DNA from: Polyangium sp. 15x6
GTDB taxonomy: Bacteria; Myxococcota_A; Polyangia; Polyangiales; Polyangiaceae
Direction of reading: 5' to 3'
Length of the DNA: 34,398 bases
Assembly: GCF_029960785.1 (NCBI RefSeq)
Contig: NZ_JASBQE010000120.1
Coordinates: 1 to 34,398, forward strand
The stretch's first letter is position 1. Each line of letters starts with the position of its first letter. Shown here piece by piece: positions 28,667 to 34,398 of the stretch. A program made the position numbers and the translations under genes. The notes beneath the pieces were generated by a model. The model was given only the letters and a program-made list of their open reading frames with translations. It ran no database searches and was not told the origin of the DNA.

Positions 28667-29671
28667 CTACGGCTCGAGCTCCATCGGCAGGCCGAACCGC
28701 GGGAAAAGCGCCGCCGTGTCGAGGAAGGAGTTCATCGCGACGATCCGATCGTCACGCAGTTCCAGCACGATGAGCGCCCACGGCTTGTACTTCTCGCCCG
28801 GCGCGTGTGGGGGCCGGTACTGCCCGAAGGCCGGCGAGCCGCACGCGGCCGTCGGCACGAGCCGCGAGCCGCGACACCCCGCGCCGCGACCGACGAGCCA
28901 GGCGAGGATGGAGCCGTGCCCCTTCAGCCAGAGCGAGTACGGCGGCATCGAGAGCGTCGCGTCCTCGTGGAGCAACGCGGCGAAGGCGTCCATGTCGTAC
29001 CGCTCGAACGCATCGACGTAGCGGTTGAGCAAGGTCGTCTGGACGTCCGCGAGCGGCGCGCGCTCCTCGGTGAGGTCACGCGTCGAGAGCGTGGCGCGGG
29101 CGCGCTGCAGGGCGCTGTTCACCGCGGCGACCGAGGTGCCGAGGCTCTCGGCGACCTCCGCGGCCGCCCAGCCGAGGACCTCGGTGAGGAGCAGGATCGC
29201 GCGCTGCTTCGGCGGGAGGTGCTGGACCGCGGCCACGAACGCGAGGCGGATGCTCTGGCGCATCGAGACGAGCTCGGCCGGGGTCGCGTCGTCGGGCAGC
29301 ACGCGCGCGTCGGGAATGGGCTCGATCCAGCTCGAAGCGGGCAGGGTGGTGAGGGTGTCGTCGACCGTCCCGACGGGGCCGCACTCCATCGGGCGGATGC
29401 GGCGCGAGCGATCCGAGAGCGCGTCGAGGCAGACGTTCGTGGCGATGCGATAGAGCCAGGTGCGTAGCGACGAACGGCCGTCGAACTGGGAGAAACTCCG
29501 CCAGGCGCGCAGCATCGTCTCCTGCACCGCGTCCTCGGCCTCCGAGACCGACCCGAGCATGCGGTAGCAATGCCCGGTGAGCGCGGCGCGATGTTCCTCG
29601 AGCTGGCGCGCGGTCGCCTGGGTGACATCGACGCCGGCGGCGTGCTTCATCGGAGACGAGAGGTCAGCCAT
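28667..29671 (-). CDS. ECF sigma factor with SnoaL-like C-terminal extension
   Basis: This 334-residue sigma factor belongs to the long ECF groups with a C-terminal SnoaL-like domain (ECF41/SigJ/SigG type). Region 2 is near 25-90 ([34 protein letters not shown]). Region 4 is near 150-200 ([36 protein letters not shown]). The NTF2/SnoaL-like tail spans about 210-334 ([21 protein letters not shown]) and in this family modulates sigma activity in place of a separate anti-sigma. The VOC gene downstream is a typical target. An inverted repeat TGTCCT/AGGACA at 29680-29708 lies just upstream. Confidence 0.9.
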
Positions 29672-29723: not shown

Positions 29724-30995
29724 CTACAGCACGATTTCGCGCACCACTTGTCCCCCGTCGGTCAGGGTGATCGGCCGGCCGCCCGGCGACGGGACCGTCT
29801 CCAGCGGATCGAGCCCCATCGCCGAGGTGATCGTCGCGAATAGATCCGCCACGGCGACCGGCCGCTCGACGACCTTCTCGCCTTGCGCGTCCGTCGCGCC
29901 GAGCGCGAGCCCGCCACGTATGCCGCCGCCCGCGAGCACGGCGCTCCATGCGGCGGGGTGGTGATCCCGCCCGCCTCGACCATTGAGGCGAGGCGTCCGG
30001 CCGAACTCGCCCATCCACACGACGAGCGTGCGATCGAGCTTCCTGCGCTCGGCGAGATCGCGGATCAGCGCGCTCATGGCCGGATCGAGCACGCCCATCA
30101 GCCGCTTCGTGCGCTCGAAGTTGTCTTCGTGGGTGTCCCAACCATCGAGCGAGACCTCGACGAACGGAACACCCGCCTCGACGAGCCGCCGCGCCGCGAG
30201 GCAACCGCGCCCGAAGGCCGTGTCGCCGTACGCCTCGCGCACGGCCGCGGGCTCGCTCGACACGTCGAACGCGGCCGCGGCCGGCGAGCGCATCATCCTG
30301 ACCGCCTGTGCGAACACCGCGCGCCGCTCGGTCACCGCCGCGCTTCGTGTTTCTTTCTCGAACGAGTCCTCGAGCATCGCGAGGGCCGCGCGCCGACGGT
30401 CGAAGCGCGTGGCCGAGACGCCCGGCCCGTACGCCATGTCTTCGGGCGGCCGTCCCGGCTCGCGCACCACGAACGGGCCATGGGCGCGCCCGAAAAAACC
30501 GCCGCCCGCGCTCGGGCCGCCGAGGCTCACGAAGGCAGGCAGCTCGGCTTTGGGATCGCCGCGCCGCGCGCTCACCCACGCGCCGAGGGCCGGGTGATCG
30601 ACCGTCGGATTGGGAATGTGCCCGGTATGACCGAGCTGCCGGGCGCGCTCGTGGCTACCTTCGCGGCTCGTCATGCCACGCAGGATCGCGAGACGGTGCG
30701 CCTCGGCGGCGACGCGCGGCAGGTGCTCGCAGATCGACACGCCCTTCGCGCTCGTCTTGATCGCGCGGAACGGCCCCGCTTCCTTGGTGCCTGGTTTGGG
30801 GTCGAACGTATCCACGTGGCTCGGCCCGCCGTTCATCCAGAGCACGATGCAAGCGTCCGCGCGGGGTTTTGCCTCGGCCGCGCTCGCCTCGGGCGTCGCG
30901 AGCCATCGCCCCGCGAGCCATGCGCCGAGCCCTCCGAAACCAGCCTGGAGCAGGCGCCGTCGATCGATCGTCATGCGTTTGTCCTGGGTGTCCAT
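29724..30995 (-). CDS. DUF1501 protein, Tat-exported
   Basis: This 423-residue protein starts with a twin-arginine signal (DRRRLLQAGFGG). The DUF1501 (sulfatase-like alkaline-phosphatase superfamily) domain follows: IVLWMNGGPSHVDTFDPKPG, GHTGHIPNPTVDHPALGAW, EVSLDGWDTHEDNFERTK and VVWMGEFGRTPR. DUF1501 genes are commonly paired with DUF1549/DUF1553 genes, as here. Function is not established. GGAGG precedes ATG 30995 at 5 nt. It begins 14 bp after the stop of the upstream gene, so the two form an operon. Confidence 0.9.
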   Translation of the reverse strand: MDTQDKRMTIDRRRLLQAGFGGLGAWLAGRWLATPEASAAEAKPRADACIVLWMNGGPSHVDTFDPKPGTKEAGPFRAIKTSAKGVSICEHLPRVAAEAHRLAILRGMTSREGSHERARQLGHTGHIPNPTVDHPALGAWVSARRGDPKAELPAFVSLGGPSAGGGFFGRAHGPFVVREPGRPPEDMAYGPGVSATRFDRRRAALAMLEDSFEKETRSAAVTERRAVFAQAVRMMRSPAAAAFDVSSEPAAVREAYGDTAFGRGCLAARRLVEAGVPFVEVSLDGWDTHEDNFERTKRLMGVLDPAMSALIRDLAERRKLDRTLVVWMGEFGRTPRLNGRGGRDHHPAAWSAVLAGGGIRGGLALGATDAQGEKVVERPVAVADLFATITSAMGLDPLETVPSPGGRPITLTDGGQVVREIVL

Positions 30996-31009
30996 GGCGT
31001 CCTCCGGTC

Positions 31010-32773
31010 TCAGTGCTGGAAGGCGAACTCGCTCGAATCGAGCAGCGCCCAGAAGAGGTCCTCGTAGGCCCGGTCCCGCGGCGTCTTCGCGACCCAGCCT
31101 CGTTTCTTGCCGATCTTGCCGAGCGGCCCCTGACCGTTCGTCTTCGCAACGGGCTCCTCGGGGACGGATGCGGCCTCGTCGAGGAACCGCACCCAGCGCG
31201 AAATCTCCTCGGCCGTGGGCCTGCGCGAGAGCGTGCGCAGGTAAAGCGCCTCGATCTTCGCCGCGTCTCCGCCCTGCATCGCGAGCACGTCCGCGAGCGT
31301 CGCGCCCGCGAGCGCGCTCGACCCGTAACCGACGAGCGGACCATTCAGCAGCAAAAGCGCCTGCGGAATCGTCCCGTCGAACTCCGCGCGCGCGCCTGCC
31401 TCGTCCACGTCGAACACGAACCGGAAGCGCTCGCGCATCTTCGCCCGCAGCGCGTCGGCCCGCTCGCCGAGCGTGTCCTCGAGCCACGGGTCGAGCCTCG
31501 TCGCCGTGAGGACCGCATCGAGCAGCACCGGCGCCGGCAGCGGCCGCGGGGCAAACGCCGCCCAGGTCGCCTCCGCCGCGGGCGGGCCGCCCGCGAGGCC
31601 GTACGCGCGCGTCGCGCAGAGCGTCCGCAAAAGGTGCTTCAGATCGTGGCCATGTGTCGCGAAATCAGCCGCGAGCGCGTCGAGCACGGCCGGCGCGCGC
31701 GGCGGGTTCGAGGGGCGCAGATCATCGACCGGCTCGACGAACCCACGCCCGAAGAAGAGCCCCCACACGCGGTTCACGAGCGCTTTGCTGAACCAGGGGT
31801 TCGTCGCCCGGGTGATCCACGCGGCGAGCTCGGCCCGCGGCGCATCACCTTCGAGCTCGGTCCCGTCGAGCGCGGTCGGTGCAAGTGTCGCGATCTCGCG
31901 CGCCTCGTCCGTCGCCTTTTTCCCGACCCGGCCGCGCTTGCCGTCGTCGACCTCGAAGGCGCGGGCCATGCCCTTTTCTTTCTCCTCGACCGGCCTCACG
32001 CGGGTCCTCGCGAAGGAGGCGGCGAAGCGGCGGAAGTCCGTGGTCGTCCAGTTCTCGGTCTTGTGGTCGTGGCATTGCGCGCACTGGATCTGCACGCCGA
32101 GGAAGGTGCGCGCGGTCGCGCCGGCCAGGTCCTCGACGCCGCCTCGGTACTGCACGACCCAGTTCGTCGCCCCGTTCACGCCCTCGGCCTCGGGCTCGGC
32201 GTCGTCGTTCTGCGCGGCCATGCGGCGCTCGCGCGCGGGCCCGCCGGGGCTGCTTTTCCCGGTCGCTGCGACCATCTCGCGCACGACGCGATCCCACGGC
32301 GCGTTCTCGACGAACCGCGCATGAAGCCAGGCCCGGAACGCGGCGCGGTCGACGAGGTTTCCCTTCACGTCGTCGCGGATGAGGATGTCCTCCCAGTACG
32401 CGGCCCAGCGCTCGGCGAAATGAGGGCTCGCGAGGAGCGCGTCGACGGCCCGGGCGCGCTTGTCCGGCGCGGGATCGGCGAGGAACGTGGTGACGAGCTC
32501 GGGCGGCGGCAACGTGCCCGCGAGATCGAGCCAGGCGCGGCGGAGGAACTGGGCGTCCGTGGCGGGTTTGGCGGGTGATACGCCCGCGGCCTTCCATTCG
32601 GCCTCGAGCAGGGCGTCGACGCGGCTGACGATGTCGGTCGTCGCGGGCGTCGGCGCCACGGTCGCGGGCGGCGACGAGGGCGCGGCGGTCGGGGAGGGGA
32701 GGCCACCCGTCCCGCCCCCCGAACAAGCGGAGAGCAGGGCGAGCGCGACCCAGGCAGAGGTCCGTCGAAGCAT
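31010..32773 (-). CDS. DUF1549/DUF1553 lipoprotein with a CxxCH motif
   Basis: This 587-residue protein starts with a lipoprotein signal (ALLSACSGG, Cys17) and a Pro/Ala spacer. The N-terminal DUF1549-type domain shows RRAWLDLAGTLPPPELV, ASPHFAERWAAYWEDIL and GVQIQCAQCHDHKTENW, where CAQCH is a possible c-type haem motif. The C-terminal DUF1553-type domain shows NPWFSKALVNRVWGLFFGRGF and YLRTLSRRPTAEE. Such proteins are abundant in Planctomycetes and some Myxococcota. The start is ATG 32773; the longer frame upstream overlaps the region divergent to ohr. It is the first gene of the operon with DUF1501. Confidence 0.88.
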   Translation of the reverse strand: MLRRTSAWVALALLSACSGGGTGGLPSPTAAPSSPPATVAPTPATTDIVSRVDALLEAEWKAAGVSPAKPATDAQFLRRAWLDLAGTLPPPELVTTFLADPAPDKRARAVDALLASPHFAERWAAYWEDILIRDDVKGNLVDRAAFRAWLHARFVENAPWDRVVREMVAATGKSSPGGPARERRMAAQNDDAEPEAEGVNGATNWVVQYRGGVEDLAGATARTFLGVQIQCAQCHDHKTENWTTTDFRRFAASFARTRVRPVEEKEKGMARAFEVDDGKRGRVGKKATDEAREIATLAPTALDGTELEGDAPRAELAAWITRATNPWFSKALVNRVWGLFFGRGFVEPVDDLRPSNPPRAPAVLDALAADFATHGHDLKHLLRTLCATRAYGLAGGPPAAEATWAAFAPRPLPAPVLLDAVLTATRLDPWLEDTLGERADALRAKMRERFRFVFDVDEAGARAEFDGTIPQALLLLNGPLVGYGSSALAGATLADVLAMQGGDAAKIEALYLRTLSRRPTAEEISRWVRFLDEAASVPEEPVAKTNGQGPLGKIGKKRGWVAKTPRDRAYEDLFWALLDSSEFAFQH

Positions 32774-32883
32774 GCGAAAGGCCCAAGCAGGACCGATGCC
32801 AGCGCTCGAGATCGCTGAAACGCGGTGATTTGCGCGTGCGCGGTCTGCGGACATCCTGCCGCGCGCTCGAGCGGTGCGGCGGA

Positions 32884-32898
32884 TGCTCCGCGGGAGCA
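32884..32898. promoter_or_regulatory. Inverted repeat upstream of ohr
   Basis: TGCTCC-GCG-GGAGCA is a perfect inverted repeat in the divergent region between the DUF1549/1553 gene and ohr, 75 bp before the ohr ATG. It could be an operator. The AT-rich OhrR-type site is not seen. The rest of this 199-bp region shows no clear promoter. Confidence 0.25.
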
Positions 32899-32972
32899 CG
32901 GGATCCACGCGGATTTCGATTGCAGCCGCGGTCTCGCGGCCGAATAGGGAGCCGCATCGAAAGGAGCGAAGC

Positions 32973-33389
32973 ATGAAGGTTCTGTACACGGCGGATGCGA
33001 CGGCGACGAACGGGCGCGAGGGGCGCGTCAAGACGGACGACGGCAAGCTGGATCTGGGGCTCAGCCTGCCCAAGAGCGTCGGCGGCCCGGGCGGGGAGGG
33101 GACGAACCCCGAGCAGCTCTTCGCGATGGGCTATTCGGCCTGCTTCGGCGGCGCGCTCGGCCTCGTCGCCCGCATGCAGAAGGTGCAGACCGGGCCCGTG
33201 CACATCGAGGCCAAGGTCTCGCTGAACCAGGATGACAGCGGCGGCTTCTTCCTCGCCGTGGAGCTCATCGGCCACATCCCGAACCTGCCGCGCGAGCAGG
33301 CCGAGGCGCTGATGCACGCGGCGCACCAGGTTTGTCCGTACTCGAAGGCCACGCGCGGCAACATCGAAGTCAAGCTCTCCGTGGCCTGA
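32973..33389 (+). CDS. ohr: Organic hydroperoxide resistance protein (Ohr/OsmC family)
   Basis: The 138-residue protein is a thiol peroxidase that reduces organic hydroperoxides in the cytosol. It has the peroxidatic Cys57 in GYSACFGGALG, the resolving Cys121 in HQVCPYSKATRGN, the catalytic Arg18 in REGRV and Glu47 in NPEQLF, and the N-terminal LYTADATATNGREG typical of Ohr rather than OsmC. AAGGAGCGAAGC before ATG 32973 is a strong ribosome site. No adjacent ohrR (MarR family) gene is present. Confidence 0.93.
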   Translation: MKVLYTADATATNGREGRVKTDDGKLDLGLSLPKSVGGPGGEGTNPEQLFAMGYSACFGGALGLVARMQKVQTGPVHIEAKVSLNQDDSGGFFLAVELIGHIPNLPREQAEALMHAAHQVCPYSKATRGNIEVKLSVA

Positions 33390-33466: not shown

Positions 33467-33697
33467 ATGAACAAGAGCCCCAAGGATCCCGGTCGAAACC
33501 AGCCCGAGCACGCCGACGAGAAGGCTCAGCGACGCGGGGCCGAGTCGCAGCACGGCGGGATCTCCTCGGAGGAGAGCTCGCGCCGGTACGAGACCGGCGA
33601 GAACCCAGGCGGCACGCATCAGGGAGGTCAGCCGGGCCCGGCGCGGTCCGACTCGAATGGCCATGGCTCATCGAGCGGCGAGGACGGCGGGTTCTGA
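33467..33697 (+). CDS. Small, highly polar, probably disordered protein
   Basis: The product is 76 residues, made almost entirely of Gly, Ser, Glu, Gln, Asp, Arg and Asn (MNKSPKDPGRNQPEHADEK, SSSGEDGGF), with no hydrophobic core, Cys or Trp. It is probably an intrinsically disordered stress-type protein. The ribosome site is weak: GGAGG lies about 20 nt upstream. Support for coding is its position directly before the DUF488 gene, whose start follows its stop by 1 bp. Confidence 0.55.
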   Translation: MNKSPKDPGRNQPEHADEKAQRRGAESQHGGISSEESSRRYETGENPGGTHQGGQPGPARSDSNGHGSSSGEDGGF

Positions 33698-33698
33698 C

Positions 33699-34106
33699 GT
33701 GCCCCGCTACGACGATGCCGCGCGCGTGCCCCTGAAGACGAAGCGATGGGACGAGCCTGTCGAGCCCGACGACGGGCTGCGTGTCCTTGTGTGCCGCTTC
33801 CGCCCGCGCGGCGTGCGCAAGGAGGACGAGACCTGGGACCTCTGGGCGAAGAACTTGGGCCCGAGCCGCGAGCTGCTCGCCGCGTTCCAGGGCAAGAGCG
33901 GCCCGCCTCTCCCGTGGAAGGACTTCGCGCGCCAGTACCGGGCCGAAATGAAGAACGAGCGAGACCTCATCCACTCGCTTGCCGAGCGCCTTCGCCTCGG
34001 TGAACGGATGACCTTGCTTTGCTCGTCGTCCTGCGTCGATGAAGCCCGATGCCACCGGACGCTGCTCGCCCGGATCCTCGAGCACGAGGCAGCCGCGGGG
34101 GGCTGA
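33699..34106 (+). CDS. DUF488-family protein (YeaO-like)
   Basis: This protein of about 135 residues matches the DUF488/YeaO family: EPDDGLRVLVCRFRPRGVRK, TWDLWAKNLGPSRELLAAF, FARQYRAEM, and the C-terminal MTLLCSSSCVDEARCHRTLL with the conserved Cys and His cluster. The family is small, cytosolic and of unknown function. The GTG at 33699 follows the upstream stop; an in-frame ATG at 33657 overlapping the previous gene is the alternative. It is convergent with the rRNA operon. Confidence 0.85.
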   Translation: MPRYDDAARVPLKTKRWDEPVEPDDGLRVLVCRFRPRGVRKEDETWDLWAKNLGPSRELLAAFQGKSGPPLPWKDFARQYRAEMKNERDLIHSLAERLRLGERMTLLCSSSCVDEARCHRTLLARILEHEAAAGG

Positions 34107-34137
34107 CGCCTGGCGGATGACGCCGGGGGATGGAATG

Positions 34138-34172
34138 AAAAAAGCCCGCGTGAGAAAAACTCCCGCGGGCTT
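34138..34172 (-). terminator. Rho-independent terminator of the rRNA operon
   Basis: On the minus strand a 9-bp perfect stem, AAGCCCGCG (34172-34164) with CGCGGGCTT (34150-34142), closes a loop with a partial inner GAG/CTC pairing. A run of six T follows (34143-34138). It lies about 104 nt after the 23S 3' end. No 5S rRNA sequence is recognised between the 23S end and this terminator. On the plus strand the hairpin could also end the DUF488 transcript, but without a T run. Confidence 0.85.
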
Positions 34173-34275
34173 CGAACACTCCGGACAACGGAATGTAGAG
34201 CGTCTTCTTGCTGCGTTCGCGCACCGGCTCGTCACCCGAGCTCTGGGCACGCCTCTCGACGTTTGCCTCAAAGGT

Positions 34276-34398
34276 ATGGTCAAGCCGCACGACCGATTAG
34301 TACCGGTTAGCTCCGCGGATTGCTCCGCTTCCACACCCGGCCTATCAACCTCGTAGTCTACGAGGGGTCTTTAGGAGCCTTGCGGCTCGGGACACCTA
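34276..34398 (-). rRNA. rrl: 23S ribosomal RNA, 3' end (partial)
   Basis: On the minus strand the sequence contains the conserved 3'-terminal segments of 23S rRNA: GTTGATAGGCCGGGTGTGGA, then GAGCTAACCGGTACTAAT, then a final GGCTTGACCAT. The 3' end is placed near 34276 by comparison with the E. coli end; the exact base is uncertain. The gene continues beyond the right edge. The 34173-34275 stretch downstream of the 3' end holds no recognisable 5S rRNA. Confidence 0.95.

Follow-up and report, generated by a model that had tools for sequence, protein, structure and literature searches.

The window analysed in this work is the whole of contig C23 (34,398 nt) from the draft genome of Polyangium sp. 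15x6 (13.38 Mb in 275 contigs), and it breaks off at the right within a minus-strand 23S rRNA gene. Of this gene the final 123 nt are present, at positions 34276–34398, and they match the Rfam model LSU_rRNA_bacteria (RF02541, 82.6 bits) from position 2806 to the end of its 2925 positions, the 5' side being cut by the end of the window. The last model position is reached at 34276, about where the 3' end had been placed in the preliminary description, and the gene thus has the intact 3' end of a bacterial rrn operon. The remainder of the 23S gene and the 16S gene of the operon are off the contig. Rfam-family searches of the same genome for 23S and 16S gave no matches, the rRNA genes being broken at contig ends, and these zeros are uninformative since the window holds a 23S tail and contig C260 a 16S start that were both missed.

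The 23S gene is followed on the same strand by a trailer (34174–34275) that can be aligned in all six Polyangium species available, and then by an intrinsic terminator (34138–34173) with a stem at about 34173–34141 and a T-run to 34138, in agreement with the strong T-run terminator proposed near 34172–34138. The hairpin folds with -22.5 kcal/mol against a mean of -10.3 for shuffled sequences (z -5.0), and none of 200 shuffles was as good. The stem is present in all six species, with 98.6% of the cells paired, and one A-U to G-C double change is found in two of them. There is little variation and the covariation is not significant, as the score was reached in 38 of 500 shuffles and the number of double changes in 308. 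A simple terminator scan lists two other hairpins, both inside the neighbouring gene, and not the one at 34173–34141, presumably because its stem has one mismatch in the window genome, at a position that forms a standard pair in all five other species.

No 5S gene is found between the 23S gene and the terminator, in the window or in its relatives. The Rfam covariance model gives no 5S at gathering score over all 34,398 bases, and a relaxed scan of 33650–34398 with E up to 10 gives the 23S gene and eight matches below cut-off, none of them a 5S, so the interval 34173–34275 is free of 5S, as had been described, also at that threshold. The gap between 23S and terminator is about 102 nt and not 104 nt. 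The observation of a 23S operon end without 5S is therefore correct. The further suggestion that 5S must be elsewhere or unlinked holds in its first part, as 5S genes are present on contigs C155 (two of full length found with the 5S model) and C48 of the same genome, but not in its second, as the 5S adjoins a 23S gene on C155, and does so at the locus of C48 in those relatives where the 23S end is visible. The window contains no tRNA according to ARAGORN, and 23S is the only Rfam family with a match at or above its gathering score.

Convergent with the operon end is a DUF488-family gene (33657–34106, plus strand; Pfam DUF488-N3a, E 3.3e-35). Farther from the operon, an adjacent pair of DUF1549/DUF1553 and DUF1501 genes occupies 29724–33073. 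The listed TTG start of the DUF1549/DUF1553 gene overlaps the OsmC reading frame on the other strand and may be too far upstream. The CDS at 28667–29671 encodes a sigma-70 family factor with a C-terminal SnoaL-like domain.

Three rRNA loci in Polyangium

An exact 25-base piece spanning the 23S end and the trailer matches Polyangium sp. y55x31, Polyangium sp. 6x1 and Polyangium fumosum DSM 14668. Altogether 108 genomes of the family Polyangiaceae were searched, and six of them belong to Polyangium, namely the genome of the window (G000) and the relatives G085, G086, G087, G088 and G089. The search for 23S ends scored up to eight candidates per genome, and masking can hide 23S ends. Among the matches listed, each of the six genomes has three rrn 3' loci, here called A, B and C, with zero, one and two 5S genes respectively, giving a total of three 5S genes per genome, some of which are cut by contig ends. 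The three operons are counted as three 3' loci in each genome. Exact 16S start motifs number three in G085 and G087, two in G088 and G089, one in G000 and none in G086, where the rRNA stretches are masked, so that exactly three 16S starts are seen in G085 and G087 only.

Locus A, without 5S, lies on C23 in G000, C42 in G085, C1:6227199 in G086, C69 in G087, C179 in G088 and C10 in G089, and blastn with 5S was empty at this locus in all six genomes, which all carry 5S genes at their other loci. The loci A, B and C of G086 are located within one contig of 13.24 Mb. Locus B, with a single 5S, is found in all six genomes, and the 5S is linked to 23S wherever that 23S end is visible; it is complete in G085, G086, G087 and G089 and cut by a contig end in G000 and G088. 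To locate it in G000, the flank of G086's single-5S operon served as query and led to the end of C48, a contig that breaks off within the 5S gene and retains 80 nt of it. Locus C has two tandem 5S genes and an orthologous flank in all six genomes, the first 5S of G087 being cut by the start of the contig. In G000 it is found at the end of C155 as a 23S tail followed by two tandem full-length 5S genes, each with a hairpin and a T-run. An extra 23S end on C46 of G089 stops 4 nt after the 23S gene and has no bearing on 5S.

The 5S pair at locus C (G000 C155, L003 9962–10381; G086, L039 7909–8409) is built from units of spacer, 5S and terminator, and in G000 the two units are 95% identical over 255 nt. 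The second 5S is preceded by the terminator-like hairpin belonging to the first, and may for this reason give less than a full dose. The two genes are not identical in sequence in G000, G085, G086 and G088.

The trailer of locus A is related to the trailers of the 5S-bearing operons in its first approximately 47 nt, and the remainder is specific to locus A. When the 292 nt at 34107–34398 are compared with the end of C155 there is 92% identity over query positions 123–292 (170 nt), and the likeness of the two trailers stops about 47 nt past the 23S end. Between species, the trailer of the window is 89, 90 and 97% identical to those of G086, G085 and G087; the corresponding values for third codon positions of the neighbouring gene are 82, 79 and 82%. 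In G088 97 of 108 positions are alike (4 nt of 23S included), and G089 is less similar with 78 of 99 aligned positions and 20 gapped columns. A comparison of the locus-A trailers of G000, G086 and G089 with the spacer, 5S and terminator of locus B in G086 gave only short weak matches (E ≥ 0.17) and no 5S remnant.

Locus A is orthologous in the six species, as genes next to it are common to the window and all five relatives, in G089 the sigma-factor gene alone. The genes for DUF488, OsmC, DUF1549/DUF1553 and DUF1501 (Pfam) adjoin the 5S-less 23S end in G085, G086 and G087, where the DUF1501 gene of G086 is cut by the end of the stretch that was read and the sigma-factor gene lies outside the stretches read in G085 and G086. 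G088 has kept the OsmC and sigma-factor genes, with partial matches to DUF488, DUF1549 and DUF1501. The DUF488 gene is thus found beside the 23S end in five of the six genomes, counting the partial one in G088; in the 5 kb stretch at locus A of G089 it was not found, and the sigma-factor gene is the only one present of those tested.

Upstream region and function of locus A

The 16S–23S interior of locus A falls in contig breaks or masked stretches, and a probable linkage to 16S is judged from 16S starts on the contigs that carry the 5' flank. With the flank of G086 as query, contigs with a 16S start near their end are found in all five draft genomes (C260, C41, C37, C146 and C18). In G086 the distance from the 16S start, carried over from G085, to the 23S end is estimated at about 4.9 kb, which fits a whole unit of 16S, spacer and 23S.

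A tandem repeat precedes the 16S start of locus A, with about 2.5 units of 131 nt in G086 and 2.6 units of 134 nt in G000 (L037 9002–9326 and L068 3557–3900), possibly representing repeated promoters. Read by eye, the unit of G000 starts with GTTGACA and continues with TTTAAAA at about promoter spacing. A promoter scan does not list these sites and gives one other weak site.

In each of the six species the 23S tail of locus A has an exact counterpart in a second operon of its own genome, with 0/302 mismatches to both B and C in G086 and 0/123 to one other operon in each of the other five; in G000 the other operon is the 5S-bearing one on C155. Such identity fits either use of the operon or gene conversion.

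The proposed explanation, to which we assign a probability of roughly 0.87, is that locus A is a genuine 16S–23S operon without 5S, that the 5S is provided by loci B and C, and that the gene was lost in an ancestor and the loss offset by the tandem 5S. Transcription should pass through the 16S and 23S genes of locus A and stop at the hairpin about 100 nt past 23S, and the transcript would be processed into 16S and 23S. The 5S enters the large subunit as a separate RNA, and can therefore come from loci B and C, so that ribosomes with 23S from locus A might obtain it in trans from the single gene at B and the two tandem genes at C. The loss would be ancestral among the six Polyangium, and either offset by the tandem 5S of locus C or arisen together with it, and the tandem would keep three 5S for three operons, a parity that selection may maintain. 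The level total could also be due to chance, yet both the loss at A and the tandem at C are present in all six species.

That a 5S gene is concealed by a chimeric or collapsed contig edge is very unlikely. C23 does break off within the 23S repeat, and C155 does so at the very same base, but a shared breakpoint of this kind is what an assembly interrupted by a repeat usually shows, and the junction of 23S, trailer and terminator is alike in the assemblies of the five other species, including one with an unbroken contig of 13.24 Mb, so the preliminary description's own caveat of an assembly error at this edge very probably does not apply. Even harder to credit is a strongly diverged 5S in the trailer that the models have missed. 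Some of the trailer is conserved across species and has no function assigned to it, but the approximately 102 nt available are fewer than the 117 nt of one 5S here, and neither the relaxed search of the window nor blastn of the six genomes gave a match at this locus.

A silent or decaying rRNA operon, in which the loss of 5S is part of the decay, is improbable but deserves more weight than these two. The 5S is already gone from locus A, and the contig breaks or masked stretches that take in the 16S body and most of the 23S could hide an inactivating lesion. On the other hand the trailer and terminator are conserved across species, and the 16S start is in place with the repeated units upstream. 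The exact match of the 23S tail to a second operon, seen within each of the six genomes, argues in the same direction, although gene conversion could produce this without expression. Judged from these sequence features, locus A is, with some doubt, a working operon. Going beyond the proposed 16S–23S operon supplied from B and C, it is conceivable, but in our opinion unlikely, that the arrangement of zero, one and two 5S genes is itself lasting and selected, with a supply that is no longer tied to 23S at locus A and hinges on read-through of the terminator between the two 5S units of locus C; if this is true the ratio of 5S to 23S could vary with the growth state.

On the proposed explanation Polyangium has a natural rRNA operon that lacks 5S and has persisted while at least six species diverged, a tandem copy elsewhere levelling the total, and the genus offers a natural test of whether selection balances the dosage of 5S. 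Counts of operons that are based on the linkage of 23S and 5S would be wrong in Polyangium.

Irregular 5S arrangements in other bacteria and in the rest of Polyangiaceae

Surveys of unlinked rRNA operons focus mainly on 16S genes located apart from 23S, whereas in Polyangium the 5S alone is missing, and from one of three operons. Both locus A and the unlinked operons described in PMC7761764 depart from the linked order 16S–23S–5S. Other bacteria are known to have irregular rrn operons in which genes are missing or supernumerary, and locus A is a tidy and conserved case. For Romboutsia ilealis, rRNA operons with missing or duplicated genes are described (PMC5598433), but there a single genome with assembly gaps at the rRNA genes is concerned and the passage on these operons leaves the missing gene unspecified, whereas Polyangium has one defined layout that is orthologous in six species. 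The rrnD operon of Escherichia coli has two 5S genes (PMC4696680, PMC7283268), and the other six operons are given with one each (PMC7283268). It resembles locus C in having an extra 5S behind one operon; unlike E. coli, Polyangium has in addition one operon without 5S, and matching totals. In Francisella an orphan 5S fragment is reported beside three normal operons (PMC3479022). According to the text of PMC7283268 more than 20% of the bacterial genomes sequenced have a 5S dosage above that of 16S and 23S, and deletion of 5S genes in E. coli carries a fitness cost. In the open-licence papers searched no report on 5S in Polyangium was found.

Among the matches listed, 58 Polyangiaceae genomes outside Polyangium show 70 23S 3' ends, and every one of these has a 5S within 1 kb; the loss of 5S therefore looks specific to the Polyangium clade. 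The 44 of the 108 genomes without a visible 23S end are not counted. In G100 two of the 70 ends match over 25 and 29 nt only, the longer one lying between two of its 5S genes, and without them 68 of 68 longer matches remain. The first spacer between 23S and 5S is 64 to 266 nt in these genomes. For nineteen of the 103 5S matches no 23S end is seen in the 1 kb upstream; eight of them are fragments at contig edges and three are in Polyangium, at locus B or C. Weak matches covering model positions 14–110 in G033, G045, G062, G064, G081 and G105 were considered as a possible 5S-like element, and this was rejected as all eight are located at the ends of contigs and are regarded as 5S genes cut short there.

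The genome paper of Minicystis rosea gives four rRNA operons (PMC8436480), and the genome taken to be this species (G067) has three 23S ends and three 5S among the matches listed, compared with the published four operons.

Tandem 5S genes are found outside Polyangium in G099 and G100, which have no visible 5S-less operon, indicating that an extra copy alone does not require a loss. G100 (L014 1501–2700 and L084), which belongs to another genus, also has a 5S without a match to the 23S tail, and with no tail motif in the 2 kb stretch that was read. At a different site in the same genome three 5S genes are placed in a row behind one 23S, and a 29-nt copy of the 23S tail is located between the second and the third of them.
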